From contig NZ_KZ454941.1 of NCBI RefSeq assembly GCF_002797375.1, positions 2,155,901 to 2,218,784 on the forward strand: 62,884 bases of DNA, written 5' to 3'. Made by a program: the position numbers and the translations under genes. This document shows, piece by piece, positions 34,624 through 49,983 of this stretch. How positions within the stretch are numbered: position 1 is the stretch's first letter; each line of letters begins with the position of its first letter. Source of the DNA: Bacillus sp. FJAT-42315 (GTDB lineage: Bacteria > Bacillota > Bacilli > Bacillales > Domibacillaceae). Under the pieces are notes generated by a model. The model did no database searches. It was given only the letters and a program-made list of their open reading frames with translations, and was not told where the DNA came from.

Positions 34624-34663
34624 GGGGCATCCAAAAGTTGATATTTCGGCTTTTGGATGTCCC
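34624..34663 (+). terminator. Terminator of the GNAT gene
   Basis: GGGCATCCAAAAG pairs with CTTTTGGATGTCCC (one mismatch) across an 11-nt loop, followed by TTTTCTG, 14 bp after the stop. Confidence 0.88.
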
Positions 34664-34775
34664 TTTTCTGTTTCAGAAGGTTTTTTCAAAGATAAACTGT
34701 ATGGAGATTTGACATATAAATCTCACTCAGAAACATTTCTAAAACTTTCGAACAGACATACTAGACTACCGAATT

Positions 34776-36122
34776 TTATTCAACGTATCGTTCATATACA
34801 TTGCCATTGAAGAAATAGTTCTTGTCACTTACTTTCTTATAGAAAGAGTCATACCCTTTGTCCATAAGTTGTTGTGCAATAGGTGGAATAGATTTTCCTT
34901 CTTCCTTCATTTTCACAACCGACTTCGTGACACCAATCGCATCCCAAATTTCAAAGACACCGAGTTCCCAACCGAATCCCCATTTCAATGCATTGTCCAT
35001 TGATACAATATCGTCTGCAATTTCACCGTGTAGATGTCCTGCAAATCGCAAAGTTGTTGATAACATATTCCAAATGAGTTTACCTGCACGATCATCGGAA
35101 TATATTAACATGTTCATTCGCTCGCCAACATCTTCTATTTGCATCGCTTTTTCAACAGAAAGCGCCTTCATTTTTTTAATAGGTTCGTATTCCATTGATT
35201 TAACATTTAACTCTAATATTTCGCCATCTAACTTCTGGTAAAACCCACGACCTTTTTTTACGCCAAGCATTTCATTTTCGATCATTTGATTGATAAATCG
35301 AGGCAATTGATACATTTCTTTTTCAACACCTTTTGCCTGCTCCTGCATATGCTTCGCTACCAACTTCAACGTGTCAATTCCTACTACATCCGCCGTTCGA
35401 AACGTTGCGGAGCTCGGACGACCGATCAATGGTCCCATGACTGAATCTATTTCTCCCACTGAATAGTCCCCTTTTTCAAGTTCACCTAGCGCAATAAACA
35501 TCCCAAAGGTTCCCAACCGATTCGCAATAAAGTTCGGTGTATCTTTTGCGAGGATGACTCCCTTCTGTAAAACTTCCTTACAAAAATATTGCATATAGTT
35601 TAACACTTCAGTAGACGTTTTTTCTCCTGGGATGAGCTCAAGTAGTTTTAACAACTGAGGAGGATTAAAAAAGTGTGTGCCTAAAAAATGCTTTTGAAAC
35701 TCGACTGAGCATTCCTCTATCATTGCTCGAATGCTTAATCCAGAAGTATTAGAACTAACTATTGTTTTTTCTGAACGAACTTGCTCAATTTGTTGAAATA
35801 ACATTTTTTTCACTTGTAAATCTTCTACAACTACTTCAATTATCCAGTCTACATCTTTCAACTTTGCTAAGTCATCCTCAAAATTTCCAGCTACAATAGA
35901 GGATAACTGATCTTTTGTTAGAAGCTGTTGTTGAAGAAGCCTTTTAATTGCATTGTTTGCGAGCCGGTTTTTGACGGATGCATCTTCTGCACTGCATCCT
36001 TTTGTTTCCTCTTTTCTATCGAGTAGTTGAACAGACAATCCTTGATTTACTAGATAAGCTGCAATGCCTGCCCCCATGACACCTGCCCCTAAAACCGCAG
36101 CTTTTTTAATTGCATATCCCAC
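34776..36122 (-). CDS. 3-hydroxyacyl-CoA dehydrogenase (FadN-like, no hydratase domain)
   Basis: The protein oxidises 3-hydroxyacyl-CoA with NAD+. A Rossmann motif GAGVMGAGIAAYL is at the N-terminus, followed by VVSSNTSGLSI and the catalytic histidine region FLGTHFFNPP. Two C-terminal dimerisation parts follow (about 190-300 and 330-450). It resembles the dehydrogenase half of Bacillus FadN, which is near 790 residues and carries an enoyl-CoA hydratase domain; here that domain is missing (449 residues) and no separate crotonase gene is in the cluster. GTG at 36122 is preferred (AAAGGA 10 nt upstream); GTG at 36131 lies too close to that site. It is the last gene of the leftward catabolic series. 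Confidence 0.9.
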   Translation of the reverse strand: MGYAIKKAAVLGAGVMGAGIAAYLVNQGLSVQLLDRKEETKGCSAEDASVKNRLANNAIKRLLQQQLLTKDQLSSIVAGNFEDDLAKLKDVDWIIEVVVEDLQVKKMLFQQIEQVRSEKTIVSSNTSGLSIRAMIEECSVEFQKHFLGTHFFNPPQLLKLLELIPGEKTSTEVLNYMQYFCKEVLQKGVILAKDTPNFIANRLGTFGMFIALGELEKGDYSVGEIDSVMGPLIGRPSSATFRTADVVGIDTLKLVAKHMQEQAKGVEKEMYQLPRFINQMIENEMLGVKKGRGFYQKLDGEILELNVKSMEYEPIKKMKALSVEKAMQIEDVGERMNMLIYSDDRAGKLIWNMLSTTLRFAGHLHGEIADDIVSMDNALKWGFGWELGVFEIWDAIGVTKSVVKMKEEGKSIPPIAQQLMDKGYDSFYKKVSDKNYFFNGNVYERYVE

Positions 36123-36172
36123 CTCAAACACTTCCTTTTTTATGGTTTTTGCCCACCAAGTTGCAGATTCAT

Positions 36173-36210
36173 AAAGGCGACTGCAATCTGATTCAGCTGT
36201 AGTCGCCTTT
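36173..36210. terminator. Hairpin between ligase and dehydrogenase genes
   Basis: AAAGGCGACT (36173-36182) and AGTCGCCTTT (36201-36210) form a perfect 10-bp stem. The following U-tract on the minus strand is weak, so it may attenuate rather than end transcription before the FadN-like gene, or protect the transcript end. Confidence 0.55.
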
Positions 36211-36292
36211 CTTTGTCGTTTGAAACAATGATCTTCATCTATTTATTAATAAATTTGTTGGAGTTATATAGCCAAGATTTAAGTTTTCCTCG

Positions 36293-37849
36293 TTATCTGT
36301 TAGTCACTTCCTTTTGATAAATGTCTACTAGGCCGCGTTTTAATATTTTTCCGACTCCATTACGAGGCAATTGGTTGATAAAAATGACTTCCTGTGGCGT
36401 TTTATATTTCGCTAAATGTTCTTGGCTGAATGCAATGATCTCCTCCGCTGTGATTGAAGCATCTGGTTTTTTAACCACATATGCTACTAAACGCTCTCCC
36501 ATTTGTTCATCAGGCACACCAACCGCCGCAACCTCCAAGACATCCGAATGCGTAACGATCACTTCCTCGATGTCTCGAGGGAAAATATTCAGTCCGCCTC
36601 GAATTACCACATCTTTCTTGCGATCAACGATAAAGATATAGTCGTCCTCATCCATATACGCCATATCACCTGTACGCAACCAGCCGTCGACAATAGTTCT
36701 GGCCGTTTCTTCTTCAAGCCGGTAATAACCAGGTGTTACATTCAATCCTTTGACTGCCAGCTCACCGATCTCACCTGGCGACAATGTATTTCCATCTTCA
36801 TCAATTATTTTTGCCTTGACAATGTCAATAGGTGGTCCTACAGATCCCGGTTTTTGAACCATATCTCTCCACTGAAGAGATACGACAGGCGCTGCTTCAG
36901 ACAAACCGTAGCCCTGCCAAATCGTTGCACCTGTTCTTCTTGTAAACGCTTCCATTAAGGCGGTTGGTAAAGGTGCAGAACTACATAAAATCCCTACTAC
37001 ACTACTAAAGTCATAGTTATCGATGGACGGATGCATAATCATTCCATAGATCATGGCCGGAACCGCTGAAAAAGATTGGATTTTATATTTTTCAACCGCT
37101 TTAAAAATTTCTTCTGCATCAAATCGTTCTAATACAATTACGGTACTTCCAAGATTTAAATACATATTCATTGCTGTAAAACCGAAGCTATGTGCTAAAG
37201 GCAACGCGACTATAGTTGTCTTCCTTAACATCTCAACTTCCATTACATTAGCAGAGGCTTGTGCGCTAATGTAAAGATTGCGATGTGTTAACATGACTCC
37301 TTTCGGTTGGCTAGTCGTGCCTGATGTATAAAGGATGACAGCTAAATCGTCTTCTTTTACATTTCGATTATTTTCAATCAGCTTATCCTCTGAAGAAAGA
37401 TAGATTTGATTTAATTCATGGACCTCCATATTTTTTTCAACATGTCCATTTTCAAACGTATCTGTAACAACCACATGAATCTTCTTATTCATTTTTTGTG
37501 CTACTTTAATAATATTATCGTACAGGCTGCTCGATGTAATGATTGTATCTGCATCAGAATCTTCCATAATATAATGGACTTCGTTTGCATTTAATGCATA
37601 CATAACGGGAACGACAACAGCTCCTGCTTTTAAAATCGCTTGATAGGCGACAAGAACTTCAGGACAATTTTGCAAATAAACAATCACCTTATCACTTTGA
37701 CTCTTCACTTGTGTTTGCAGGTAATTAGCAAGTTTAGTTGATAAATGATCTAGTTCTAGATTCGTATACGTGGAATCGCCAAAGCGAATAAAGTCATGTT
37801 TACCAAATTTCTCTATGTTCTCTTTCAATATAGTAGTAAGTAACATCAT
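36293..37849 (-). CDS. AMP-forming acyl-CoA synthetase
   Basis: A 518-residue ANL-superfamily ligase that activates a carboxylic acid to the acyl-AMP and then the CoA thioester. Visible motifs: P-loop YTSGTTSQPKGVMLTHRN, the A5 region WQGYGLSEAAPVVS, A7 LRTGDMAYMDEDDY, A8 hinge DRKKDVVIRGGLNIFPRDIE and the catalytic lysine in PRNGVGKILKRGL. Length is typical of medium/long-chain ligases. GGGAGG precedes the ATG by 7 nt. It is the second acyl-CoA ligase in the cluster (the other is at 41622-43349), suggesting two acid intermediates. Confidence 0.93.
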   Translation of the reverse strand: MMLLTTILKENIEKFGKHDFIRFGDSTYTNLELDHLSTKLANYLQTQVKSQSDKVIVYLQNCPEVLVAYQAILKAGAVVVPVMYALNANEVHYIMEDSDADTIITSSSLYDNIIKVAQKMNKKIHVVVTDTFENGHVEKNMEVHELNQIYLSSEDKLIENNRNVKEDDLAVILYTSGTTSQPKGVMLTHRNLYISAQASANVMEVEMLRKTTIVALPLAHSFGFTAMNMYLNLGSTVIVLERFDAEEIFKAVEKYKIQSFSAVPAMIYGMIMHPSIDNYDFSSVVGILCSSAPLPTALMEAFTRRTGATIWQGYGLSEAAPVVSLQWRDMVQKPGSVGPPIDIVKAKIIDEDGNTLSPGEIGELAVKGLNVTPGYYRLEEETARTIVDGWLRTGDMAYMDEDDYIFIVDRKKDVVIRGGLNIFPRDIEEVIVTHSDVLEVAAVGVPDEQMGERLVAYVVKKPDASITAEEIIAFSQEHLAKYKTPQEVIFINQLPRNGVGKILKRGLVDIYQKEVTNR

Positions 37850-37938
37850 AGGAATTCCTCCCTTAGTTTTTTAGGAATGCTATTTAGTACTTAACTGATT
37901 TACCCTTCTAACATCAAACGATTTCATACACCTGCTAA

Positions 37939-39129
37939 TTATCCCCGCGGTAATTGCAAAACTCTTTCTGCAATAATATTTTTCTGAACTTGCGTTGTGC
38001 CCGCATAAATCGTTTCTCCTCGAGAGATAAAATCAATTTCATGCAACTTCCCTTTTCCTAAACTATCTTCCCCCCAATACGGAGCCTGCTTACCGAGTAC
38101 TTCCATCGCCAATTCTCCCAATTTCACATGCATAGAACTCCAAAATACCTTTTGCATGGAAGCTTCAGGGCCTAGCCTGTTATGATTCATAAGCTGACTC
38201 ATTGTTTTCAAGCCATGATAACGGAAAATACGGATTTCTGAGTAAATTTCAGCAAGCTTTTGTCTAAAGTAAGTTGTATCCGCAATCCGTGAACCATCTG
38301 CTGTTGTTAACTCTTTACTTAACTTAACAATTTGCTCGAATTCTTTTTGAAATTGCGCTTGTCTTCCAAGTGACATCGTTCCGCGTTCGAAACTTAATGT
38401 TGTCATTGCAATTTGCCATCCATTATTTAGCTCGCCTACAAAATTTTCTTTTGGAATCCGAACATTATCAAAGAACACTTCATTAAACATTGCCTTTTTA
38501 TCCATTTGAACAATCGGCCGAACGGTCACGCCTTTACTGTTCATCGGAACGAGAAAGAATGTTATTCCTTTATGCTTAGGGGCTTCTTTATCTGTTCGCG
38601 CTAAGACAAAACACCAGTCAGCAAATTGCGCTCCGCTTGTCCAAACTTTCTGTCCATTTATAACCCACTCATCCCCATCTAACTCCGCTCTCGTTTGAAG
38701 TGATGCTAAGTCAGATCCAGCATTTGGCTCTGAAAAACCTTGGCACCACATTTCTTCTCCTTTCAATAAAGGCTCTAAATAACGCTTCTTTTGTTCTTCA
38801 GTACCGTAAACTAATAGTGTCGGTCCAAATAGAGATTTTCCTAACGCGTTTACTTCAGGAGGAGCATTTAATTTTCCAGCCTCTTCAAAGAAAATAATTT
38901 CGTGTATCGTTGTTTTTCCTTGACCTCCATACTTTTTTGGCCAAGTGATTCCATTAAATCCTCCTGAATAAAGCGTTTTCTCCCACCCGCGGTAAAAGGC
39001 TGCCTCCTCTTCCTCATTTTGAGGTTTTGTATATAAAGGCGTTCCCCACTTCTCAGGCAAGTTCTCTTGTAACCAATGTCGAACTTCTAAACGATATGCT
39101 TCTAACTCCTTGCTTAATGAAAGATCCAT
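37939..39129 (-). CDS. Acyl-CoA dehydrogenase, subunit A type
   Basis: A 396-residue flavin-dependent dehydrogenase. The central FAD-contact region CQGFSEPNAGSDLASLQT and C-terminal ISRGETIYAGTTQVQKN, then IIAERVLQLPRG, place it in the group whose C-terminal motif is Y-A/G-G-T instead of Y-E-G-T, so the base glutamate of medium-chain enzymes is not at the usual place. Such proteins often pair with a second, shorter dehydrogenase to form alpha2-beta2 enzymes, as in sterol catabolism (FadE28-FadE29 type). The partner candidate is the adjacent gene 39188-40291. Start ATG follows GAGGTGAGGGT. Confidence 0.92.
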   Translation of the reverse strand: MDLSLSKELEAYRLEVRHWLQENLPEKWGTPLYTKPQNEEEEAAFYRGWEKTLYSGGFNGITWPKKYGGQGKTTIHEIIFFEEAGKLNAPPEVNALGKSLFGPTLLVYGTEEQKKRYLEPLLKGEEMWCQGFSEPNAGSDLASLQTRAELDGDEWVINGQKVWTSGAQFADWCFVLARTDKEAPKHKGITFFLVPMNSKGVTVRPIVQMDKKAMFNEVFFDNVRIPKENFVGELNNGWQIAMTTLSFERGTMSLGRQAQFQKEFEQIVKLSKELTTADGSRIADTTYFRQKLAEIYSEIRIFRYHGLKTMSQLMNHNRLGPEASMQKVFWSSMHVKLGELAMEVLGKQAPYWGEDSLGKGKLHEIDFISRGETIYAGTTQVQKNIIAERVLQLPRG

Positions 39130-39187
39130 ACCCTCACCTCATCATTATTTGTTGTTCCAATATTGCTTTCAATAGATTCGAATCGAT

Positions 39188-40291
39188 TTAATCAATGACT
39201 AGCTGTGCTATCGTTTCACGATGATCATAACTATTGCCTAATATCGCAGCAGCACGTCGAATGCGTTTGAAAAATAAATGCATATCATTTTCCCACGTAT
39301 AACCAATTCCTCCATGCATTTGAATGGCATCCCCTGCGATTTTGATTGAATGGGAGGATGCATATGATTTAGCAATTGAAACCGCTTCTGCCGCTTCTTT
39401 ATGATTCACATCCAGCGCCCACGCACTATAATCAATCGCTGCTTTCATACTTTCAATTTGTGTAAACATATCCGCAGCCATATGCTTCAATGCTTGAAAA
39501 GACCCTATTGCCACTCCAAATTGTTTTCGCTCTTTTAAATATTGCACAGTGGAGTGCATCATTCTTTCACTCGCCCCCGTTAATTCTGCAGCAAGCAATA
39601 ACGAAGCTATTCGTTTCAGTTCCTTCATCTTTTGGTTACCGACTCCCATTCCCTCTGCTAATACGATGGAAGATTGATCAAAAGCATAATCATGAAGTGC
39701 TACCTCATATAAAGGATACGTTTCATCTAAAGAATGATTGTTCTTAAAATTCAAACTACTGCTTTTGGCATCAATCAGAACCAATGTCTCTTCTTCTTGA
39801 CTGGAAAAACCACTGCCTAAAATTCGGATTGATGCAAGGATCAAGTCAGCATCTTTGGCAAAAGGGACTTCTTTGAGGATGCCGTTCGCAACATAATGAT
39901 TTTCACCTCTTTTTTCAACTACCGCTTCCGTGCTTGTCCACGCAATCGTAGGAAGTGCCGCCCCTATTTCAATATTTGCAACCGTTTTGGCTTGAATTTC
40001 ACTTGTGGACAATAAAGAATTAACCAAAGTCGCTTCAATATACGGATACGTTAACAATGCTCGTCCAGCTTCTTGTGCAAGAATTACTCCAGGAATCATC
40101 CCTTTATTTTCATCGCTAGCTAGATCGAACATGCTTAATATCCCTTGCTGAGCGATTAGTTTACGCATCTCTTGACTCATTTCACTCTTTTTTATAAAAT
40201 GACGAACCTGTTCAATTGTATTTTTTTCTTTCAGCATGTCCCGTATACTACGTTGCAACATTACTTCTTCATCGTTATAAGAAAAATCCAT
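39188..40291 (-). CDS. Acyl-CoA dehydrogenase, subunit B type
   Basis: A 367-residue acyl-CoA dehydrogenase of the shorter kind, with the C-terminal signature AIQMHGGIGYTWENDMHLFF seen in the beta-type partners of heteromeric dehydrogenases. ATG 40291 is chosen because GAGGTG lies 6 nt before it; GTG at 40300 is inside that site. It lies just upstream of the A-type gene (58 bp gap), which supports a heterotetramer. The substrate would be a CoA ester with an unusual, perhaps cyclic or branched acyl group, by analogy only. Confidence 0.9.
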   Translation of the reverse strand: MDFSYNDEEVMLQRSIRDMLKEKNTIEQVRHFIKKSEMSQEMRKLIAQQGILSMFDLASDENKGMIPGVILAQEAGRALLTYPYIEATLVNSLLSTSEIQAKTVANIEIGAALPTIAWTSTEAVVEKRGENHYVANGILKEVPFAKDADLILASIRILGSGFSSQEEETLVLIDAKSSSLNFKNNHSLDETYPLYEVALHDYAFDQSSIVLAEGMGVGNQKMKELKRIASLLLAAELTGASERMMHSTVQYLKERKQFGVAIGSFQALKHMAADMFTQIESMKAAIDYSAWALDVNHKEAAEAVSIAKSYASSHSIKIAGDAIQMHGGIGYTWENDMHLFFKRIRRAAAILGNSYDHRETIAQLVID

Positions 40292-40388
40292 TTGATTCAC
40301 CTCAACCCAATCATTTTTTTATTAGATGAATCACTCTTCCTTAGCATTCATTTCGCGGAAAAAGTGATCCTCCCCTTAAGAGTCTATC

Positions 40389-41594
40389 TCATGATTCGAT
40401 TCTTTCGATAATAAGGGCGGTTCCGGTCCCTCCCCCACCACTTACGGCAATTAACCCTCGCTTCTTTTCCTGTCTTTCTAGCTCATCAAGCATTGTAGCC
40501 ACGAGCATACCACCTGTAGCCCCTAGTGCATGTCCCATGGATATAGCGCCACCATTGACATTGATTTTTTCTACGTCAATATTCAAGTCACGTATATATT
40601 TCAAAACAGTCGCGGCAAAAGCTTCGTTATATTCAAAAAGGTCAATGTCTTCTACGGAAAGCTTGGTTTTCTCTAATACTTTTTCAGTAGCTGTTTGTCC
40701 ACCTGTCAATAGATATGGACTCGCTGCAGCATTCACCGCTCCGATAATTCTCGCTCTTGGCTTCATCTCTAAAGAATGCGCGGCTTCTTTATTCCCTACA
40801 AGTAGTAAGGAAGCCCCATCGGCTAAAGAGGGTGAGTTCCCTGCATGATGCAAATATTCAATTTTGTTTAATTCCGGGAAAGCTCGATAGATTTTGTCTT
40901 CGGCTTCCCCTACACCAAATTTAATAAAAGAAGGTGTAAGCTTCGATAATGTTTCTGTAGAGCTGTTTTCACGAATTAACTCATCATGATCGAGCAAAAG
41001 ATTTTTTTCATCATCATAAACAGGGACGAGGGAGCGAGAGAAACGATTGTTTCTTCTTGCTGCAGCTGCCCGCTCTTGAGATTGAACAGCATATTCATCT
41101 AGCTGACTTCGAGAAAAACCTTCTAAAGAGGCGATGATGTCAGCCGAAATGCCCATCTGCACAAATCCAGTTTGCACACGCACTTCTTCGTCAACAAACC
41201 AAGCACCCTTATCAGCGAACATAGGGACGCGTGAAACAGATTCGACCCCACCTGCTAACACCACATTTTCCATACGTGAGTGCGTTTTTAGCGCAGCCAT
41301 TCCTACCGCGTCCAAACCTGAAGCACAGAAACGATTGATCGTTACTCCACTTATGGATTCCGGCCATTCAGCATAAAGAGCGGAGATTTTAGCAATATTG
41401 GCTCCCTGATCATTCACTTGCGTCACACAGCCGAGAATAAGATCTTCTACTAGTGCCTTATCAAAAGAATGATGATTCTCCATAGCAGCAAGTAATTGTG
41501 AAACGAGCTTTATCGGTTTAACTGAAGCTAAAGACCCTTCTTTCTTTGCCATCCCCCTCGGTGTGCGAATTGCTTCGTAAATATAAGCATCCAT
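40389..41594 (-). CDS. Thiolase (FadA6-like acetyl-CoA acyltransferase)
   Basis: A 401-residue thiolase. The start IYEAIRTPRGMAKKEGSL resembles actinobacterial FadA6-type enzymes of sterol-ring degradation. The nucleophilic cysteine is present (NRFCASGLDAVG), as are NEAFAA and the histidine of NGGAISMGHALGATGG, though the usual Pro of GHPLG is Ala. The second catalytic cysteine, normally in C-x-GGGxG near the C-terminus, is serine here (AVSGGGGTGTALI; codon AGT). This may alter or reduce activity. It lies between the second ligase and the dehydrogenase pair in the same leftward series. Confidence 0.9.
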   Translation of the reverse strand: MDAYIYEAIRTPRGMAKKEGSLASVKPIKLVSQLLAAMENHHSFDKALVEDLILGCVTQVNDQGANIAKISALYAEWPESISGVTINRFCASGLDAVGMAALKTHSRMENVVLAGGVESVSRVPMFADKGAWFVDEEVRVQTGFVQMGISADIIASLEGFSRSQLDEYAVQSQERAAAARRNNRFSRSLVPVYDDEKNLLLDHDELIRENSSTETLSKLTPSFIKFGVGEAEDKIYRAFPELNKIEYLHHAGNSPSLADGASLLLVGNKEAAHSLEMKPRARIIGAVNAAASPYLLTGGQTATEKVLEKTKLSVEDIDLFEYNEAFAATVLKYIRDLNIDVEKINVNGGAISMGHALGATGGMLVATMLDELERQEKKRGLIAVSGGGGTGTALIIERIES

Positions 41595-41621
41595 TCGATA
41601 ATCACCACTCTCAAAATTTTG

Positions 41622-43349
41622 TTAGCGATACTCGATTTCTTGTTCTTCAAGCACTTGCTCACGCAAACGATGTTTCAATATTTTCCCTACAGGATTACGA
41701 GGAAACTCCTTATAAATTGTGATATATTCTGGAATCTTATAGGTTGCATAACCATTCTCTTTAAAAAATGTGAATATTTCTTCTAATCCAATGGTTTCCT
41801 CAAGGTTTTTCAACACAATACAAGCACAGGCTTTTTCCCCCATTACTTTATCAGGAACGCCGACGACTGAAACTTCTGCAATCTTTGGATGACTTTGCAA
41901 GAAGTATTCAACTTCTTCTGGAGATATATTAACTCCTCCACGAATAATAATATCCTTAGAACGCCCAACGAAACGATAGAACCGTTGAACCCCATCTACT
42001 TCAACAATTTCGAACAGATCTCCGGTACAGAAAAAGCCATCTTTATCGTATACTTTGCAGTTAAGGTCCTCTCTTTTCCAGTAGCCTTGTAGCACACTCG
42101 CGCCTTTAATCCGCATTTCACCCGGCATGCCGCTTTCCGTAATGATTTTTCCTGTCTCTACGTCCACAATTCTACTTTGAAAACGATGCGCGATTCTTGT
42201 GGACCACTCAAATCCTTCTACGCCAAAGCGCGGAAAGAAATTTGCACGCTGCTCAGAATTTGGAATGTCTCTCGGACCACTCATAAACGTTGCTCCTTCA
42301 TTCGAACCGAAATAATTGATAATATCAATGTCGAATTTTTCTTTCCATCCTCTTACCATCCAAGAAGAGAGTGGAGTGGACCCAGAACCAATAGCTCGCA
42401 AAGTTGAAAAATTCGCTTGCTTTAAGATAGCTTCATTATTCAGCATCATATTTAAGAGCGCTGGAGGAGCTAATGTATACGTTGCACGTTCAATTGCCAC
42501 TTGCTGCAAAAATGCCGGTAAGTCAAACGGATGGTGCATCATTAGCTTACTGCCAGCAATTAACCAAGGAACGAACATGCCGCCAATTCCCGCCATATTG
42601 ACCATTGGAAATGTATTGAGTAATATGTCTTCTTCTGTAAATTCCACGACATCAACAGAAGCGTATGCGGAAATCAACCATTCATTATGGCTCCTTGGAA
42701 CTCCTTTCGGTTTTCCTTCTGTACCAGATGTCCAACAAATCGTAAAAATATCATTGGCCGTAGATGGATTCGCAGTTATTTCTTGTTGCAGACATTCGAT
42801 ATCTTCCATTGATAACTCCGCTTGATCGATGGAGAGAACTTCTGTTGGAATAGCTTCGCCCCAAGCAAAAATCGTTTCGATCGTTGGCAATTTCGATCGC
42901 ATCTCTACAAATGTTTGCGCGGCATGGTAATTCAGAATACGTGACATGGTAAGTACAGCCTTTGCTTCAACAAAATTAAGAAGGGTTTCGTATTCGTGCT
43001 CTCGATATTGAACTGGTAATGGCGTTGCAATCGCACCAATTCGTAAAATAGCTAAATAAGAAATAACAATTTCAACTGTATTCGGCAATTGAACGGCAAT
43101 AATATCATCTTTCCGAATGCCATTTTTCATTAAAATAGCCGCTAGCCGATCTGCTTCATCACTGAGTTGTTGGTACGTGAGTCGTTTTGGTGCTTGATGA
43201 CAAATGGTTTCACGATTGAGGGGGTCAATAATGGCCTCAATATGCGGTCGATTATTTACGTGATGACGGAATATATCATAGATGGTCTCTGTTCCCCACC
43301 ATCCCTTTTCTTCATACTCTTTAATGATTTCTTTGCTTGCCAGTATCAT
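41622..43349 (-). CDS. AMP-forming acyl-CoA synthetase (second)
   Basis: An ANL ligase, 575 residues from ATG 43349, which follows GGGGGAG by 8 nt; the longer frame from 43442 lacks such a site. Motifs: ICWTSGTEGKPKGVPRSHNE (P-loop), FGSNEGATFMSG (A5), FCTGDLFEI (A7), VGRSKDIIIRGGVNISPEE (A8) and the catalytic lysine in PRNPVGKILKHRL. It is longer than the first ligase and closer to the 2,3-dihydroxybenzoate/short aromatic or cyclic-acid type only in general form; the substrate is unknown. It follows the carotenoid oxygenase gene after 53 bp. Confidence 0.92.
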   Translation of the reverse strand: MILASKEIIKEYEEKGWWGTETIYDIFRHHVNNRPHIEAIIDPLNRETICHQAPKRLTYQQLSDEADRLAAILMKNGIRKDDIIAVQLPNTVEIVISYLAILRIGAIATPLPVQYREHEYETLLNFVEAKAVLTMSRILNYHAAQTFVEMRSKLPTIETIFAWGEAIPTEVLSIDQAELSMEDIECLQQEITANPSTANDIFTICWTSGTEGKPKGVPRSHNEWLISAYASVDVVEFTEEDILLNTFPMVNMAGIGGMFVPWLIAGSKLMMHHPFDLPAFLQQVAIERATYTLAPPALLNMMLNNEAILKQANFSTLRAIGSGSTPLSSWMVRGWKEKFDIDIINYFGSNEGATFMSGPRDIPNSEQRANFFPRFGVEGFEWSTRIAHRFQSRIVDVETGKIITESGMPGEMRIKGASVLQGYWKREDLNCKVYDKDGFFCTGDLFEIVEVDGVQRFYRFVGRSKDIIIRGGVNISPEEVEYFLQSHPKIAEVSVVGVPDKVMGEKACACIVLKNLEETIGLEEIFTFFKENGYATYKIPEYITIYKEFPRNPVGKILKHRLREQVLEEQEIEYR

Positions 43350-43402
43350 TTCCGTTTCTCCCCCTTTAGCTATGCAAGTTTCTATTAGCCGATCCGTCTG
43401 CT

Positions 43403-44827
43403 TTATGCATCTTCCTTGTAGAAATTCTCCCCAGAAATCCACGTTGCATGGAAGCCCATCGGAACCCGTTGCGGCAGCGCAATTCTAGCAATTGGCTCCA
43501 GTTCGAAATGCTGTGCATCTAAGATGATCAACTCGGATTTATTTTCTTGTTCATTGTAAATATAAGAAAGGATATACCCATCATCTTCTGATTTGGCATT
43601 TTTCTTTGGCGCGAATGCTGCTTCCGTTCCATAGTGCTGAGGGGCGAATAGATGCTTTTTCGAGGCGCCGGTCCATGTGTCATATTTGACTAAACCCGTA
43701 AATTTTAGCGTAACCGCTGAATCAATATAAACATTGTATGAATAGCGCCCTTTTCGTCCCAGGTAATTTAAGTTGGTGACCGGGAACTCTGTATTCATAT
43801 CGCAAAGTTCTCCTTCTTTTACTGCTCCAGTTTTTGTATTTAAACGCCAGTAGTGCAATTGCGCATTCAACTGTAAGAATTGCATCATCCGTTCGATATC
43901 GCTTTCGCCCGCATTCTTTGGCGGCTCTGGCTCTTTTACCCGACAACCGATAAGGACAATTTCATCGCCTTCTTCCCATGCATTGATTGTATGATAGATA
44001 TAGCAAGGATCTGCTTCGTACCAGCGAATATCTTCCGAAGCACCGTATCTTGGAATCACACCAAAACGACTAGGCATATCACGATAGAACTCTACCTTAT
44101 AGCGCCCTTTTTTCAACGCTTCTGGATTATTAAATAATGGCAAATCCATTAAAATTGAATAATTTTCTGTAATCCACATATCATGAGGATTTCGTGGTCC
44201 AGGCAATTCGATCGGCACACTGTGTACATTTTTTCCATCTGCTGAAACAACACCATACATCATATATGGAAATTTTATCCCATAGTCAAAGAAAATAAAT
44301 TCACCCGTATTTTCATCGACTTTTGAATGGGCAGAAACGCTTGATTTTAATTGACCATTAAAATTTTCTACTCCAATCGTTTCCAATGTTTTCGCATCAA
44401 TGCGGTAGGGCTCACCGGAAATGTACCAAAGACTGAGCAGATTATTATTATGATAGACAACATCCGTATTGGAAGTGTTTTTCAACCTTTCAAAACTTGG
44501 ATTTTTTGATATGTCTTCCATTAGCCCAACCCATTCAGATTTCTTCGCTTGATCTTCATGCTGATAACCTTTTGTTTGAACATAACGGTTTCGATAACTC
44601 ACTTTTCCATCTTTAATATAGACAGCATGTAACATCCCATCTCCGTCAAACCAATGATGGCGCCCCATCGGCTCATACTTTGGATTCGGACCATTACGGA
44701 CATACGCACCACTAAAGTCAGTAGGGATTTCGCCTTCAATCACCTGTAGTTCCTCTATGAATAGTTCTTCATCAATCGGTGCATATAATGGGGCTTGTAA
44801 ATAAGGATTTAATTCCACTTTACTCAT
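43403..44827 (-). CDS. Carotenoid cleavage oxygenase family protein
   Basis: A 474-residue member of the RPE65/apocarotenoid/lignostilbene dioxygenase family, which uses Fe(II) and O2 to split a C=C bond into two carbonyls. The N-terminal signature GAYVRNGPNPKYEPMGRHHW and DGDGMLHAVYIKDG is canonical. Four iron-binding histidines are visible: in SVSAHSKVDE, NPHDMWITENY, IYHTINAWEEG and MGFHATWISG. It starts with ATG behind AAAAGGAG and overlaps the upstream flavoprotein stop by 1 bp (TGATG). No carotenoid or retinoid biosynthesis gene is near, so a catabolic role on an apocarotenoid, stilbenoid or similar alkene is inferred. Confidence 0.94.
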   Translation of the reverse strand: MSKVELNPYLQAPLYAPIDEELFIEELQVIEGEIPTDFSGAYVRNGPNPKYEPMGRHHWFDGDGMLHAVYIKDGKVSYRNRYVQTKGYQHEDQAKKSEWVGLMEDISKNPSFERLKNTSNTDVVYHNNNLLSLWYISGEPYRIDAKTLETIGVENFNGQLKSSVSAHSKVDENTGEFIFFDYGIKFPYMMYGVVSADGKNVHSVPIELPGPRNPHDMWITENYSILMDLPLFNNPEALKKGRYKVEFYRDMPSRFGVIPRYGASEDIRWYEADPCYIYHTINAWEEGDEIVLIGCRVKEPEPPKNAGESDIERMMQFLQLNAQLHYWRLNTKTGAVKEGELCDMNTEFPVTNLNYLGRKGRYSYNVYIDSAVTLKFTGLVKYDTWTGASKKHLFAPQHYGTEAAFAPKKNAKSEDDGYILSYIYNEQENKSELIILDAQHFELEPIARIALPQRVPMGFHATWISGENFYKEDA

Positions 44828-45822
44828 CAGATTCGCTCCTTTTCACTGTTTTTCCATTGGTTGTTTGTATTTAATTCCATTTGTGCTTCTTTATATTCTC
44901 GTTGTAAATGTTGAATAATTTCGGCAGCGGGTTGAACGCTTTGAATGACTCCCACCCCATGTCCGGCCGACCAAATATCACGCCAAGCTTTTGTGTCACT
45001 TTGTGGATTACTAAAATCAATCGAATCCTTCGGTGTTAACTCTTCAGGTACCAGACCTGCTTTTACAACACTCGGAATCAGCATGTTCGCATGAACGCCC
45101 GTGAAGGCATTCGTCAATAAAATATCGTCAAACTCCGCCTCTACAACCATCTCTTTATATTCTTGCTGCGCCAGGCTTTCTGCAGCTGGAATAAAAGAAG
45201 TTCCCATGTAAACAAGATCGGCTCCAAGCGCTTGAGCGGCTAAAATACCTTTTCCGCTAGATATGCCTCCTGCAAGGACAATGACCCCATCCCAGAATTG
45301 ACGCACTGCTTCTACAAAAGCAAAGCCTGCCATCGCTCCTGTATGACCGCCGGCTCCAGCGCTGACAAGGATTAAACCATCCACTCCTGCTTGCGCGGCT
45401 TTCTTCGCGAATTTCACAGAGTTCACATCAGCAAATACGTATCCACCATAACTATGGACCACTTCCACCACGCGAGCTGGACTTCCTAATGCCGTTATCA
45501 CAATGGGAGGTTCATAGTGGATTAACAGCTCCAATTCTTGTTGCAAACGATCATATGAACTGTGTGCAATTATATTTACTGCCCACGGAGCAATTTTTTG
45601 GCCATTATTTTTCCTTTCTTCTAATGACCCTTTAATTGTTTTCATCCAATCTTCCAATTGCTCGATTGTTCGGGCATTCGGTGCTGGAAAAGCACTCATT
45701 ACACCACTTTTACAACAAGCCGTCACTAATTCCGTACCTGATACTAGAAACATAGGCGCCGATATAACCGGCAGTACTGTTTGATCCCCGATTCTTTTCA
45801 AAATCAATTCTTTATCCCTCAA
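44827..45822 (-). CDS. Nitronate monooxygenase-like FMN protein
   Basis: A 331-residue TIM-barrel flavoprotein of the nitronate monooxygenase/2-nitropropane dioxygenase family. The FMN and catalytic region SAGAGGHTGAMAGFAFV includes the family histidine, and VLAGGISSGKGILAAQALGA, then VYMGTSF, binds phosphate. Members near acyl-CoA genes often are not nitronate enzymes; IpdC of the actinobacterial sterol pathway is an example of the fold acting as a CoA-ester oxidoreductase. The first gene of the leftward operon; it starts with TTG after GGAGGAG, about 36 nt downstream of the predicted sigma-54 start site. Confidence 0.9.
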   Translation of the reverse strand: MRDKELILKRIGDQTVLPVISAPMFLVSGTELVTACCKSGVMSAFPAPNARTIEQLEDWMKTIKGSLEERKNNGQKIAPWAVNIIAHSSYDRLQQELELLIHYEPPIVITALGSPARVVEVVHSYGGYVFADVNSVKFAKKAAQAGVDGLILVSAGAGGHTGAMAGFAFVEAVRQFWDGVIVLAGGISSGKGILAAQALGADLVYMGTSFIPAAESLAQQEYKEMVVEAEFDDILLTNAFTGVHANMLIPSVVKAGLVPEELTPKDSIDFSNPQSDTKAWRDIWSAGHGVGVIQSVQPAAEIIQHLQREYKEAQMELNTNNQWKNSEKERI

Positions 45823-45868
45823 AAAAATCTCCTCCTATCTGATTCAAGCCCTTTCACAGTGAATAAAT

Positions 45869-45885
45869 TGCAATTACCATGCCAA
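45869..45885 (-). promoter_or_regulatory. Sigma-54 (SigL) promoter, leftward
   Basis: On the minus strand TTGGCAT-GGTAA-TTGCA matches the -24/-12 consensus TTGGCAC-N5-TTGCA at all but one position. The GG (45883-45882) and GC (45871-45870) doublets are separated by exactly 10 nt. It lies 47 bp before the start codon of the flavoprotein gene. Confidence 0.88.
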
Positions 45886-45951
45886 CATCAAAAAACGGCT
45901 ACTATCGCAAAACAACCTTCTTTTTGATTACTTTTATAATCAACTCTTTCT

Positions 45952-45977
45952 ATTCCGATTCGATTTCGAATCAGAAT
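45952..45977. promoter_or_regulatory. Dyad upstream activating sequence between divergent promoters
   Basis: ATTCCGATTCG and CGAATCAGAAT form an inverted repeat with 10 of 11 matches. The core CGATTC-N6-GAATCA (45956-45973) recurs with identical half-sites and spacing at 48017-48034, upstream of the sigma-54 activator gene. It lies about 70 bp from the leftward and 48 bp from the rightward -24 element, right for an enhancer used by both. Confidence 0.75.
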
Positions 45978-46022
45978 ATGACTTTATCTCATTAAAAGAC
46001 GATGTTAACGCGATCTAAAGGC

Positions 46023-46039
46023 TTGGTATACTTTTTGCA
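46023..46039 (+). promoter_or_regulatory. Sigma-54 (SigL) promoter, rightward
   Basis: TTGGTAT-ACTTT-TTGCA has GG (46025-46026) and GC (46037-46038) doublets with the obligatory 10-nt spacing. It is a weaker match than the leftward one in the -24 block. The first rightward gene starts at 46092. Confidence 0.78.
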
Positions 46040-46091
46040 TATTATTACCTAGAAACAAAAATGACTATGGAATAATAAGGGGGACAATGCG

Positions 46092-46400
46092 ATGTTATTT
46101 TTTATCCGTGCATCAGTTCATCAAAAAGAACTATCAAATGAGGAGCTCTGGGCATTATGGGAAAAGGAAATAACTGTTGCTCGAAAAGCAATGGAACACA
46201 AAAAAATAATAAGTGCTTATAAAATTGCTGGACGGAAAGAAGTCATATTAATTTATCGAGCTGATTCACATGATGAATTAGATCGTGTTTTTACTGCACA
46301 ACTGCCATTAGCTAATTATTTAACCATTCAGGAAATGACCCCAATTCGGCCGTACCTTGAGTTTGCAGAAGATGTTATTGACCGATGGAGCAAAAAATAA
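46092..46400 (+). CDS. Muconolactone delta-isomerase-like protein
   Basis: A 102-residue ferredoxin-like protein of the muconolactone isomerase family (start MLFFIRASV, tail IRPYLEFAEDVIDRW). True muconolactone isomerases act in the catechol branch of the beta-ketoadipate pathway, but no other gene of that pathway is present. It may instead shift a double bond in, or open, another lactone or enone of this pathway. GGGGG lies 8 nt before the ATG. It is the first gene of the rightward operon behind the sigma-54 promoter and is 24 bp before the hydrolase gene. Confidence 0.82.
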   Translation: MLFFIRASVHQKELSNEELWALWEKEITVARKAMEHKKIISAYKIAGRKEVILIYRADSHDELDRVFTAQLPLANYLTIQEMTPIRPYLEFAEDVIDRWSKK

Positions 46401-46424
46401 AGCCATTGTTTGAGGAGGAATAGG

Positions 46425-47342
46425 ATGAAAATCGAAAAAATTACGTATATGAGTGATGGGATTGCATGCAGTGGATTGCTTTATATTCCAGCTGGAGAAG
46501 ATACAGCAACGTATCCAGCTGTCGTGATGGCACATGGATTTAGTCTTGTAAAAGAGGCTTACTTACCGAAGTATGCGGAAAAGTTTGCGGAGGCTGGATT
46601 GGTTACACTCATTATCGACTATCGTAACTTTGGAGAAAGTGAAAGGGAAAACCGGCAGCATATGGATCCTCTAGAGCAGATTAAAGATTATCGACATGCG
46701 ATTTCATGGGTTTCATCACATCCAAATGTAAAGGAAGATCAAATTGGGATTTGGGGGACCTCTTATAGTGGGGGACATGTTTTACAAGTAGGTGCACTCG
46801 ATCGTCGTGTTAAAGCAATTGTTTCACAAGTCCCAACCATTCGCGGTTGGATCGGTATGGAGAAAAAAATGGGCAAAGAAAATATGGGTGCCTACATCAA
46901 AAAGCTGATTGCCTACCGTACAGAACGCTATGCCGGCGCTCCAGTTGAACATATTCCTGTTGTCAGCAAAGATCATCAAAACTGTGCACAAACACATCCT
47001 GAAGCATACCCATGGTTTACGAAAATGTCTGAAGAGGTGGCTCCTACTTGGAAAAACTATATTACACTCGAATCTATGGAACATTATTTGGAATACTTTC
47101 CGGCTGCTAATATAGACATCATTTCACCAACGCCACTGATGATGATTGTTGCAACAGAAGATGGGATTACACCGCCCGACGCAGCTATTGAAGTGTTTCA
47201 TTCGAAAGCCAAGGAGCCTAAAAAACTTGTAAAATTACCAAAAGGTCATTTCGATGTTTACAATGGTGAAACATTTGAGGCTGCACAACAAGCTGCTACA
47301 AGCTGGTTCGTAGAGCATTTATGCAAAGGAGTGGGACAATGA
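46425..47342 (+). CDS. Alpha/beta hydrolase (dienelactone-hydrolase/YcjY-like)
   Basis: A 305-residue alpha/beta hydrolase. The early segment YPAVVMAHGFSLVKEAYLPK carries the oxyanion-hole HG, the nucleophile serine is in WGTSYSGGH (GxSxG), and a late ATEDGITPPDAA and PKGHFDVY contain the likely acid and histidine. Such enzymes cleave esters, lactones or C-C bonds of diketones. ATG 46425 follows GAGGAGG by 6 nt; the TTG at 46410 lies upstream of that site. Its stop overlaps the next start (ATGA), so translation is coupled. Confidence 0.9.
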   Translation: MKIEKITYMSDGIACSGLLYIPAGEDTATYPAVVMAHGFSLVKEAYLPKYAEKFAEAGLVTLIIDYRNFGESERENRQHMDPLEQIKDYRHAISWVSSHPNVKEDQIGIWGTSYSGGHVLQVGALDRRVKAIVSQVPTIRGWIGMEKKMGKENMGAYIKKLIAYRTERYAGAPVEHIPVVSKDHQNCAQTHPEAYPWFTKMSEEVAPTWKNYITLESMEHYLEYFPAANIDIISPTPLMMIVATEDGITPPDAAIEVFHSKAKEPKKLVKLPKGHFDVYNGETFEAAQQAATSWFVEHLCKGVGQ

Positions 47343-47797
47343 CTCTTCCAGCATATATCAAACCCACTGTTGAAGACTGGCTTATAAAATTCCATTTTTC
47401 TACCCACACGAAGGTTCGAGTTTGTGAAACAGACTTATTTGGCCATGTAAACAATACAAGTTACAGTCTATACTTTGAACAAGGACGTGCTGATTACCTC
47501 GAGCATTTTGGGTTCTATGATTGCGGACTAATGTTTGTCGTTGGCGATATATATTGCCATTTCCACCGTGAAGCCTATGTGCGTGATGAATTAATCATCA
47601 AAGTAAGAACCTCCAAATTTGGAACAAAGTCTTTCACTTTGGAAAGCGCAATCCTGCGAAAATCAACAGGTGAACTGATTGCATCCAATTGGACAACGCT
47701 TATCTTAATGGATAGTGACACCAAAAAAACCATCGCCCTGTCTGATTTCATTAAAGAATCAATACGAGAATTAGAAAAAGATGAATCTCTAGTTTAA
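47339..47797 (+). CDS. Hotdog-fold acyl-CoA thioesterase (YbgC/4HBT type)
   Basis: A 152-residue thioesterase. RVCETDLFGHVNNTSYSLYF contains the catalytic Asp and the GHVNN signature of 4-hydroxybenzoyl-CoA thioesterase-like enzymes. It hydrolyses acyl-CoA and may release a dead-end product or recycle CoA. ATG 47339 overlaps the hydrolase stop and has AAAGGAG 7 nt before it; the earlier TTG at 47321 is not supported. It is the last gene of the rightward operon, closed by the terminator at 47820-47866. Confidence 0.9.
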   Translation: MTLPAYIKPTVEDWLIKFHFSTHTKVRVCETDLFGHVNNTSYSLYFEQGRADYLEHFGFYDCGLMFVVGDIYCHFHREAYVRDELIIKVRTSKFGTKSFTLESAILRKSTGELIASNWTTLILMDSDTKKTIALSDFIKESIRELEKDESLV

Positions 47798-47819
47798 TAG
47801 CATTCAAAAAAGAATACAT

Positions 47820-47866
47820 AGAAAAAGCGTGATTTGAAAAAAGACTAATCAAAACACGCTTTTTCT
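47820..47866 (+). terminator. Terminator of the rightward catabolic operon
   Basis: AGAAAAAGCGTG pairs perfectly with CACGCTTTTTCT across a 23-nt loop (with extra pairing TTTGA/TCAAA inside). The T-run lies in the descending arm. It separates the operon from the activator gene. Confidence 0.85.
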
Positions 47867-47973
47867 AAATTCAATTGAATCATCCTTTTGTAATGAATCC
47901 AACAGCTATCCAAGATAATAAATCCACTTTTCATCCTTCTTTTTTATTAAATACTTCCACTCCACAAAAAGAA

Positions 47974-48001
47974 TTGAAATTCAGAATATTTAGTATATCA
48001 T
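47974..48001 (+). promoter_or_regulatory. Sigma-A-type promoter of the activator gene
   Basis: TTGAAA (47974-47979), a 16-bp spacer and TATCAT (47996-48001) form a reasonable vegetative promoter 65 bp before the activator ATG. GAATTGAAATTC (47971-47982) is a palindrome over the -35. Confidence 0.55.
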
Positions 48002-48016
48002 TATTCATATAAAGAT

Positions 48017-48034
48017 CGATTCCATAACGAATCA
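48017..48034. promoter_or_regulatory. Second copy of the CGATTC-N6-GAATCA dyad
   Basis: CGATTC (48017-48022), six bases, GAATCA (48029-48034): both half-sites and the spacing equal those of the dyad at 45956-45973. It lies just downstream of the predicted -10 of the activator gene, so binding there would repress or tune the activator's own expression. Confidence 0.7.
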
Positions 48035-48065
48035 TCTAGAACAGATTGAAAAAGAGGTGAACACA

Positions 48066-49421
48066 ATGGAGACTATTTATTCACTTGCTTTTCTTCATAG
48101 CTATGATGGTATTTGTATTTTTGATAAACATGGCTTTGGTCTTGAGATTAATAAAGCGGCCGAACGTATTACAGGTTTTAGTCGTGAAGACTTTATTGGA
48201 GAAAATATTGCATCGGCGATTGAAAAAGGGTATATTTCAAAATCAGTAACGGAGCTGATTTTGAAGAATAAACGTCCGCACACAGAAGTCATCAGCATTC
48301 GCGGAGTTGAAATGTTAGTTACAGGAAACCCTATTTTTGATTCAAAGGGGCAAATAGACTACATTGTTCTCAATGTACGCGATATTTCTGAATTGAAAAA
48401 CGTCAAAATTGATTTGCTTTTATCCATTGCATTAAAGCGAAAAAACAATGCGGACCCCCTTTTCCCTCATCCAGAAACACTTCCTTCCGTACCCATAGCA
48501 GGGAATATAATTGCTTCTAGTCCTAAAACTCAACATATTGTTCACCTAGCTACAAAAGTCGCTAAAGTAGATTCTTCGGTGCTCATTTTAGGAGAATCTG
48601 GCGTCGGTAAAGAAGTTATTGTCAAACTAATCCATCAGCAAAGCCTAAGGGCAGAGTACCCGCTCATCAAAATCAATTGTGCTGCCATTCCTCAGCATTT
48701 ACTCGAATCCGAATTATTTGGCTATGAAAAAGGGGCCTTCACGGGAGCCGACCAAAACGGGAAAACTGGACTTTTTGAGGAAGCAAACGGTGGAACGATC
48801 TTTTTAGATGAGATCGGCGATATGCCAATCGATCTTCAAGTGAAACTATTACGTGTGCTACAAGAATATGAAATTCGAAGAGTTGGTGGCAGAAAAGATA
48901 TCAAGATTAATGTTCGGATTATTTCGGCAACGAATAAAAACTTAGAACAACTAATTAAAAATGGTGAGTTCCGCGAAGACCTTTACTATCGATTGAATAT
49001 AGTTCCCTTAAAAATTCCTCCTTTACGTGAACGTGTAGAAGATATTAAACCACTAGCGCATATGATCTTAAATCAGACAAACCAAAAATATAATTTGCAT
49101 AAGCATTTTCAGCCCGGTGTTATTGAATTGTTTGAAAAACATTCTTGGCCTGGAAATATCCGCGAAATGGAAAATATGATTGAACGGCTGGTTGTCACCT
49201 CCGAACAAGAAGAAATTACTTGGAGCGACCTTCCTTTCATTGCGGAACACCCAAGTCTTTCTGGGAGTTATTCATTGAAACACACACTTGAAGAAGTAGA
49301 GAAGAAAATAATCCTCGAAAAAATGCAAATGTATAAAACAACGCGAAAGGTTGCAAAAGCGCTTGGTATTAGCCAATCCGCAGTCGTAAAAAAACTTCAA
49401 AAATATAAACTGAGTTTTTAG
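48066..49421 (+). CDS. Sigma-54-dependent activator, PAS-AAA+-Fis
   Basis: A 451-residue bacterial enhancer-binding protein. Domains: one PAS sensor (about 1-115), AAA+ (about 145-380) with Walker A GESGVGKE (176-183), the sigma-54 contact loop GAFTGA (223-228) and Walker B GGTIFLDEIGD (242-252), then a Fis-type helix-turn-helix at the end (RKVAKALGISQSAVVKKLQ). It has no phosphoreceiver domain, so a ligand sensed by PAS is likely. ATG 48066 follows AGAGGTG by 6 nt; GTG 48057 overlaps the site. It sits next to the divergent sigma-54 promoters and is the obvious activator of both operons. Confidence 0.95.
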   Translation: METIYSLAFLHSYDGICIFDKHGFGLEINKAAERITGFSREDFIGENIASAIEKGYISKSVTELILKNKRPHTEVISIRGVEMLVTGNPIFDSKGQIDYIVLNVRDISELKNVKIDLLLSIALKRKNNADPLFPHPETLPSVPIAGNIIASSPKTQHIVHLATKVAKVDSSVLILGESGVGKEVIVKLIHQQSLRAEYPLIKINCAAIPQHLLESELFGYEKGAFTGADQNGKTGLFEEANGGTIFLDEIGDMPIDLQVKLLRVLQEYEIRRVGGRKDIKINVRIISATNKNLEQLIKNGEFREDLYYRLNIVPLKIPPLRERVEDIKPLAHMILNQTNQKYNLHKHFQPGVIELFEKHSWPGNIREMENMIERLVVTSEQEEITWSDLPFIAEHPSLSGSYSLKHTLEEVEKKIILEKMQMYKTTRKVAKALGISQSAVVKKLQKYKLSF

Positions 49422-49702
49422 TCGTAAATTCAATAAATTTTTGCCAAAAAAGAAACACCTCAACACAGGAAATGTTGTTTTATGACCAGGCTCTAGAAAT
49501 AGACGGCTGGTATCGAAAAAAAATATAAAAATCTTCTTTCTTCTTGAAAAGACGTTGCTGTTTCTAAAGAAGAGTCCGCTGATCAAGCTGAGTCCCATTC
49601 ACGATTCTCCGAAAATTTCGATGCATAAGATGCAAACGACTGGGGATTATAACACTATAGTGAAGGATTTTAACGATAACATTTATAGAGGGAGCGAGCT
49701 AA

Positions 49703-49975: not shown

Positions 49976-49983
49976 AAAATTTA

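Follow-up and report, generated by a model that had tools for sequence, protein, structure and literature searches.

We analyzed a 62,884-nucleotide stretch of the genome of Bacillus sp. FJAT-42315 (contig NZ_KZ454941.1, positions 2,155,901 to 2,218,784 of the forward strand; here referred to as the window), in which eleven genes for enzymes and one for a sigma-54 activator make up an islet of two divergent series at 34776-49421. On balance, sequence comparisons favor the view that this islet is a horizontally mobile, inducible catabolic unit built around a module of four enzymes: a nitronate monooxygenase-type flavoprotein (NMO), a carotenoid cleavage oxygenase family enzyme (CCO), an acid-coenzyme A (CoA) ligase (ACS2), and a thiolase-fold enzyme (THL). 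Judged from gene content across loci, these four genes are the conserved core, extended in Bacillota by genes for a muconolactone-isomerase-family protein (MI), an alpha/beta hydrolase (ABH), a thioesterase-like protein (TE), and the activator (S54); a genus-specific set encoding two acyl-CoA dehydrogenases (ACDS and ACDL), a second acyl-CoA ligase (ACS1), and a 3-hydroxyacyl-CoA dehydrogenase (HAD) is attached to it. The original prediction for this DNA had proposed a catabolic system of eleven enzymes; one CoA-based system with a carotenoid-type oxygenase still describes the islet, but a single eleven-enzyme pathway does not.

Leftward from the middle, the genes are NMO (44827..45822), CCO (43406..44827), ACS2 (41622..43349), THL (40389..41594), ACDS, ACDL, ACS1, and HAD, all on the minus strand; rightward, on the plus strand, they are MI, ABH, TE, and S54. 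All open reading frames (ORFs) are intact, and Pfam supports all twelve families (3HCDH, AMP-binding twice, acyl-CoA dehydrogenase twice, thiolase, RPE65, NMO, MIase, alpha/beta hydrolase, 4HBT, and sigma-54 activator), which bears out the predicted arrangement of eleven enzyme genes in two divergent series. The start of ACS2 is probably at 43349, behind a good ribosome-binding site (AAAGGGGGAG), instead of at 43442, so the apparent overlap of ACS2 with CCO is probably spurious.

The four-gene core recurs across phyla

The scan of GTDB contigs for CCO covered the best 80 of 539 loci, with phyla taken from titles. Together with genome and plasmid loci, it gave 88 distinct CCO loci by ORF clustering, leaving out one contig (L025) that duplicates another (L011). 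Because the GC3-based ORF caller overlooked some genes (for example, the THL genes of L034, L044, and L092, which were found by tblastn), counts over the 88 loci are lower bounds. Among the phyla represented in the best 80 loci are Bacillota, Chloroflexota, Actinomycetota, Bacteroidota, and Pseudomonadota, and in the last four of these, too, CCO occurs together with ACS2 or a thiolase. Of the 14 other distinct Bacillota loci, 12 retain the order NMO-CCO-ACS2-THL (the exceptions being G047 and G090), as does the Chloroflexota locus L033, where an SCP2-type thiolase gene and a small ORF lie between ACS2 and THL. A further Chloroflexota locus (L032) has NMO, CCO, and ACS2 in order, Marinicauda pacifica also has NMO-CCO-ACS2, and Nocardia loci have the order CCO, THL, ACS2, SCP2-type thiolase. 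Overall, ACS2 accompanies CCO in at least 49 of the 88 loci, an SCP2-type thiolase in at least 51, THL in at least 44, and NMO in at least 21; the corresponding minimum counts are 10 for MI, 9 for TE, and 7 each for ABH and S54, and all 10 MI loci also have NMO, ACS2, and THL. By ORF clusters, both types of thiolase are present in 30 loci, at least one in 65, and neither in 23. The recurrence of the core across phyla speaks against a chance grouping, a possibility raised with the original prediction.

Within the order, CCO was found in 7 of 397 genomes and MI in 5. The five MI genomes are also those with the five best matches to ACS2 (66 to 100% identity; the next two, at 42% and 41%, come from genomes that lack CCO, and 26 of 397 genomes pass 1e-60) and the five best matches to NMO (72 to 100% identity; next, 62%). 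The remaining two CCO genomes (G047 and G090) have CCO, THL, and an SCP2-type thiolase, with MI and ACS2 absent. Outside Bacillota, the core is carried on plasmids of Sphingopyxis granuli RW412, Cupriavidus basilensis DSM 11853, and C. necator NH9, together with genes for an alpha/beta hydrolase, a short-chain dehydrogenase/reductase, an aldehyde dehydrogenase, and a major facilitator superfamily transporter. No CCO is annotated alongside two haloarchaeal relatives of ACS2.

The genus-specific set is distributed differently: close copies of ACDL, ACDS, ACS1, and HAD each occur in 1 of the 88 CCO loci, that of Bacillus sp. REN10. Distant relatives of these four (22 to 36% identity) lie near CCO in further loci, such as those of ACDL in L014, L015, L027, L076, L077, L089, and L091. 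ACDL and ACDS are neighbors in each of the five loci retrieved from other genomes, with no CCO in those stretches. This arrangement speaks for a heteromeric enzyme and likewise for an islet of composite origin. The heteromeric acyl-CoA dehydrogenase of the original prediction is therefore plausible.

Predicted activities of the core enzymes

CCO matches Pfam RPE65 with 470.5 bits over residues 15-465, and the histidines H167, H215, H279, and H460, which we take to be the Fe ligands, are present in CCO and in 89 of 89 relatives. In a structural model with a pLDDT of 84.6, the 50 best PDB matches listed are all members of the family (TMq, 0.82 to 0.88). Sequence and model together place CCO in the carotenoid cleavage oxygenase family and predict cleavage of a C=C bond. 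The best PDB match by sequence (306 bits, ~34% identity) and by fold is the plant CCD1 of Osmanthus fragrans, a carotenoid 9,10-dioxygenase, from which CCO differs in sitting in a bacterial operon with CoA enzymes. Second by fold is the lignostilbene dioxygenase 5v2d (193 bits by sequence). The lignostilbene and resveratrol dioxygenases (LsdA, NOV1, and 5v2d) share their fold with CCO, but Trp134 of CCO aligns with a Lys of 5v2d, at the column of the presumably phenol-binding Lys (LsdA Lys134). This column holds Trp in 82, Phe in 5, and Met in 2 of 89 relatives, which argues against phenolic stilbenes and makes the stilbenoid substrate offered in the original prediction unlikely. The match to the NCBIfam model LigStilDioxAlpha (256, with a cut-off of 800) is below threshold.

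For thiolases, one report describes the nucleophilic Cys as the site of the covalent intermediate, Asn316 and His348 as the oxyanion hole for the enolate, and Cys378 as the base (PMC3406046), and another names Cys88, His348, and Cys378 as the catalytic residues (PMC4595758). THL has the nucleophile C90 and H355, with Ser385 in the column of the acid/base Cys; this Cys is present in the alignment anchors 3svk, Rv0859, and 3goa and in three other thiolases, two from the same genome and one from G030. Residues were counted in 43 of the 45 sequences of the CCO-linked THL cluster (L016 and L088 were dropped by length; one sequence is from a duplicate contig). All 43 keep C90 and H355, whereas the acid/base column is Ser in 24, Pro in 16, and His in 3. 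A wider tblastn recount over all 89 loci gave 54 THL sequences at ≥37% identity (one a duplicate), 51 of them with a readable acid/base column. The nucleophilic Cys (CxS) is present in 54 of 54 and the His in 52 (2 gaps), and the acid/base column holds Ser in 27, Pro in 18, His in 3, Ala in 1, and Cys in 2 (3 gaps). The oxyanion-hole Asn (NEAF) is present in THL of the window and in 29 of 43 relatives.

By these alignments, the part of the THL site that handles the acetyl-CoA enolate is altered and the part that carries the acyl-enzyme is kept, and THL is probably not an ordinary beta-ketothiolase. Lacking the acid/base Cys, it would be expected to release a leaving group that needs no protonation by that residue, such as an enol or a vinylogous acid. 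Among NCBIfam models, THL passes PRK08242 (516.5, with a cut-off of 514), and its nearest PDB sequences are 3svk and Rv0859 FadA; these matches lend no support to the "FadA6-like" label of the original prediction. The actinobacterial FadA (Rv0859) type and PRK08242 share with THL a length of ~400 amino acids, the CxS nucleophile, and the NEAF motif, but in THL of the window the CxG motif reads S-G-G and GHP reads GHA.

NMO is an FMN-type protein of the nitronate monooxygenase/FabK family, with His160 in 22 of 22 aligned sequences. Its best NCBIfam model is FabK (110 bits, with a cut-off of 453), and the label "IpdC-like" finds no support among its matches. No model named for IpdC or FadA6 is among the NCBIfam matches for NMO (all 7) or THL (the best 25 of 37), the content of the library for such models being unchecked. 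The C-terminal part of ACDS resembles IpdE2 (133 bits, with a cut-off of 450). We also considered a sterol-ring (Ipd/FadA6) reading and set it aside as unsupported: the likeness had rested on the IpdC and FadA6 labels, which the curated-model matches do not back, and this part of ACDS alone is IpdE2-like. Relatives of NMO at 48 to 50% identity adjoin hca/LigAB-like aromatic genes or genes for a CoA-transferase and a hydratase, neighborhoods that do not settle which reaction NMO catalyzes. Near CCO in 15 of the 88 loci (Nocardia and Amycolatopsis) is an F420-type luciferase-like oxidoreductase, assigned to TIGR03841 in the one scanned (L060), which possibly takes the place of NMO there.

ACS2 is assigned to the adenylate-forming acid-CoA ligases of the aryl/alicyclic acid type by Pfam, NCBIfam, and PDB sequences. 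Its nearest PDB sequences are salicylate and dihydroxybenzoate ligases, and it scores 247 bits on the cyclohexanecarboxylate-CoA ligase model (cut-off, 792). Since it scores higher, at 320 bits (cut-off, 476), on general fatty-acid ligase models, a ring-borne acid is just a hint.

Predicted sigma-54 control

We scanned the whole window on both strands for -24/-12 sites, using a weighted consensus, and obtained 4 sites at a score of 0.85. A sigma-54 promoter-like site at 45869..45884 on the minus strand (TGGCATGGTAATTGCA) faces NMO-CCO-ACS2-THL and is kept in relatives. A weaker one at 46024..46039 on the plus strand (TGGTATACTTTTTGCA) faces MI-ABH-TE; it scores 0.79, below 0.85, and no background rate was computed for the weaker threshold. 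Both sites occur in all seven scanned regions with divergent NMO and MI (the window, L010, L011, L012, L023, L024, and L026) and also in L013, at a contig edge. In L027-L030, which carry MI downstream of THL and in the same orientation, the NMO-facing site alone is strong (4 of 4), and no sigma-54 site came up in nine other intergenic regions (seven of the window and two of L010). S54 (48057..49421, plus strand) has the PAS, AAA, and helix-turn-helix domains of a sigma-54-dependent activator, and RpoN is encoded elsewhere in the genome. A predicted -24/-12 site, an activator, and RpoN are all present, as would befit a sigma-54-dependent operon. A double-HxlR regulator is encoded near CCO in 34 of the 88 loci (L018, L020, and among L040-L101; Actinomycetota, Cupriavidus, and Maricaulales), which suggests that the same module is under different regulators in different phyla.

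Presence and absence of the islet as a block

Bacillus sp. REN10, a member of the same genus, shares the segment from 34762 to 49472: two long pieces align at 93.2% and 94.1% identity, and a 79-base piece aligns at 87%. Outside this segment, the REN10 sequence (~1.6 and 3.1 kb compared) is unlike the flanks in the window; there, the islet is at another site. Another species of the genus (G003) has an empty site, at which genes for an acetyltransferase and a YgaP-like protein adjoin. Window positions 33001-34667 align with 3481-5148 of G003 and 49621-50033 with 5150-5549, so that the breakpoints are one base apart in G003 and the whole insertion spans 34668..49620; the neighboring genes of G003 have 93 to 99.7% protein identity to those of the window. 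The joined flanks in G003 and the REN10 copy at another site indicate that a block of ~14.95 kb is gained or lost whole. Its G+C content is 39.6%, compared with 38.7% in the remaining window, and no integrase is among the twelve genes. From these comparisons, the block appears to be a horizontally mobile unit that moves between bacterial chromosomes. A Wadjet type III defense locus, JetC-JetB-JetA-JetD (50057-57704, identified with PADLOC), adjoins the insertion site of the islet.

Other enzymes of the islet

On the plus strand, MI (46092..46400) is recognized by Pfam MIase with 41.7 bits. Among curated models, ABH (46410..47342) comes closest to the UilS lactonase, with a score below cut-off, and TE (47321..47797) is a hot-dog acyl-CoA thioesterase-like protein by Pfam. 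The genus-specific genes are all on the minus strand. ACDS (39188..40300) is the partner of ACDL (37939..39129), and its C-terminal domain alone is recognized; ACDL is PimC-large-like (TIGR03204, 278 bits, with a cut-off of 624). ACS1 (36293..37849) is a long-chain-type acyl-CoA ligase, and HAD (34776..36131) lacks a crotonase domain and resembles the first half of Staphylococcus FadB. Family searches for enoyl-CoA hydratase and aldehyde dehydrogenase gave no match inside the window, in agreement with the original prediction, and several matches elsewhere in the genome. An Rfam search of 32000-50100 found nothing.

Proposed mechanism and alternative readings

In the mechanism that we propose, the PAS-domain activator S54 would switch the module on through the two divergent sigma-54 promoters. 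The starting compound would be an unsaturated carboxylic acid, or else a lactone that ABH opens once MI has shifted its double bond, and ACS2 would convert the acid to its CoA ester. CCO would use O2 to cut a conjugated C=C bond into two carbonyl fragments, and NMO would perform flavin redox chemistry with an enone or a nitronate-like carbanion. THL would take an acyl group onto Cys90 and pass it to CoA, with a leaving group that is probably a stabilized carbanion (an enol, a cyclic dione, or another vinylogous acid) and not acetyl-CoA. In this genus, ACS1, ACDL-ACDS, and HAD, together with a housekeeping hydratase and aldehyde dehydrogenase, could finish a saturated acid fragment. As the substrate class we tentatively favor an apocarotenoid or another cyclic terpenoid acid or lactone over a phenolic stilbene, a choice that we hold with limited confidence.

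The lower beta-ketoadipate pathway comprises muconolactone isomerase, enol-lactone hydrolase, CoA activation, and the PcaF thiolase. Like that pathway, the islet brings together an MIase-family protein, an alpha/beta hydrolase, a CoA-activating enzyme, and a thiolase-fold enzyme, and since MI is of the isomerase family and the nearest model for ABH is a lactonase, an order of isomerase, lactone hydrolase, ligase, and thiolase-like enzyme is proposed by analogy. In contrast to the pathway, the islet has a CoA ligase rather than a transferase, a thiolase without the acid/base Cys, and an MIase far below the muconolactone cut-off, and it would be fed by CCO rather than by a ring-cleaving dioxygenase. 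It may represent a new kind of module, to which we give somewhat less than even weight: an Fe(II) carotenoid-type oxygenase would open the substrate, and THL, without the Claisen acid/base Cys, would perform non-Claisen C-C cleavage or acyl transfer. Unsaturated natural products would thereby reach central metabolism with no hydratase or dehydrogenase steps, in more than one phylum.

Several observations weigh against these proposals. The substrate, the order of the steps, and every intermediate are ones that we infer. MI scores 23.5 on NCBIfam muco_delta, under the cut-off of 130.6, and the best fold match of its low-confidence model (pLDDT, 69) is the chloromuconolactone dehalogenase ClcF (TMq, 0.69). 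MI, ABH, TE, and S54 were observed in Bacillota alone, so the lactone logic is not universal, and S54 is absent from the stretch examined in L027-L029, where the sigma-54 site is present. Nor is the loss of the acid/base Cys in THL universal, since two relatives from delta-proteobacterial and myxobacterial metagenome-assembled genomes (L082 and L092; 42 to 43% identity to THL) keep it; THL of the window and the Bacillota sequences inspected have lost it. The SCP2-type thiolase beside CCO in other lineages has the motifs usual for its type in 51 of 52 sequences, so ordinary thiolysis may occur in those lineages; this genome has no close copy of it. In Neobacillus L027-L029, ORFs that read as hydratase-like occur at most 10 kb away from CCO. 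Relatives of NMO are frequent without CCO (104 of 397 genomes pass 1e-60), and 19 of the 88 CCO loci, several on short contigs, have no ACS2, THL, SCP2-type thiolase, or NMO in the clusters. Two of five CCO plasmids examined lack the full core: that of C. necator C39 has CCO and ACS2 and no NMO, and that of Polaromonas P1-6 has no ligase or thiolase annotated. The correlation between CCO and ACS2 identities across 50 loci (r = 0.975) counts in favor of a conserved core, but its value is inflated by common ancestry and one duplicate contig.

An ordinary beta-oxidation side pathway, in which Ser or Pro stands in for the Cys of THL and a branched or cyclic acid is degraded after CCO has cut its C=C bond, seems to us rather unlikely. 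THL does pass the PRK08242 cut-off with its nucleophile and His intact, its two deeper relatives keep the acid/base Cys, and beta-oxidation in this genus could draw on ACDL/ACDS, HAD, and ACS1. However, that Cys is missing in 49 of the 51 readable relatives but present in other thiolases encoded by this genome, and the conserved core contains neither an enoyl-CoA hydratase nor a hydroxyacyl-CoA dehydrogenase to form a 3-ketoacyl-CoA. That the genes form no pathway, with unrelated lipid genes having come together by chance or through growth of a fatty-acid operon, is very hard to credit: NMO relatives and acyl-CoA ligases are frequent singly, but two phyla share the gene order and further phyla the genes themselves, co-occurrence is five for five, the promoter-like sites are common to the loci, and the genes appear to be transferred jointly.

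Two narrower substrates were weighed against the broader terpenoid class. Aromatic alkene catabolism of the lignostilbene, resveratrol, or isoeugenol type would fit the good match of the CCO model to lignostilbene dioxygenases (5v2d at rank 2), the aryl-acid ligases nearest to ACS2 in the PDB, and a VanA-like Rieske gene in the Sphingopyxis cluster. The replacement of the presumed phenol-binding Lys in 89 of 89 relatives, the distance of CCO from the lignostilbene cut-off, and the absence of any ring-cleavage family among the twelve genes by Pfam nevertheless make it decidedly improbable. It is also improbable that the substrate is abscisic acid, with CCO cutting the C2=C3 bond of the side chain to give dehydrovomifoliol and glyoxylate and with ACS2 and THL acting on a later acid. 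Abscisic acid is a C15 apocarotenoid acid, CCO resembles CCD1, and dehydrovomifoliol and rhodococcal acid are bacterial products for which, according to one report, enzymes are still to be found (PMC9599779). The authors of that report, however, favor removal of a C2 unit as for beta-methylcinnamic acid together with a Baeyer-Villiger step (PMC9599779), and NMO-CCO-ACS2 also occurs in Marinicauda pacifica, marine by its name. The mechanisms and enzymes of abscisic acid degradation are described there as yet to be worked out (PMC9599779), and the AX7B genome note offers no genes to compare for it (PMC12509608). Degradation of abscisic acid by Rhodococcus sp. P1Y, for which that report names no enzymes, possibly has its substrate class and stepwise side-chain removal in common with the islet.

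Literature context and neighboring features

No paper describing this gene set was among those listed by full-text searches of PubMed Central literature, which omits most subscription papers; the original prediction had likewise named no described Bacillus pathway with the set. If the proposed module is real, a cross-phylum module centered on a carotenoid-type oxygenase would give natural alkenes a new way into the metabolism of bacteria, and the chemistry of THL, singled out by its sequence, should differ from that of classical thiolases. Should an apocarotenoid, or a hormone of this kind, prove to be the substrate, the islet would provide enzymes for degradations known from their products alone.

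Upstream of NMO-CCO in Neobacillus L027 and L028 are ORFs that read as a peptide-type ATP-binding cassette transporter, an M20 amidohydrolase, and enoyl-CoA hydratases, a hint at possible import of an amide conjugate in these loci. Elsewhere in the window, a clustered regularly interspaced short palindromic repeat (CRISPR) array at 8404-19242 consists of 164 identical 32-base repeats (ATTTCAATCCACGCACTCATGTAGAGTGCGAC), the first copy starting at 8404 and the last at 19211, and the genes beside it at 19710-27350 may be cas genes.

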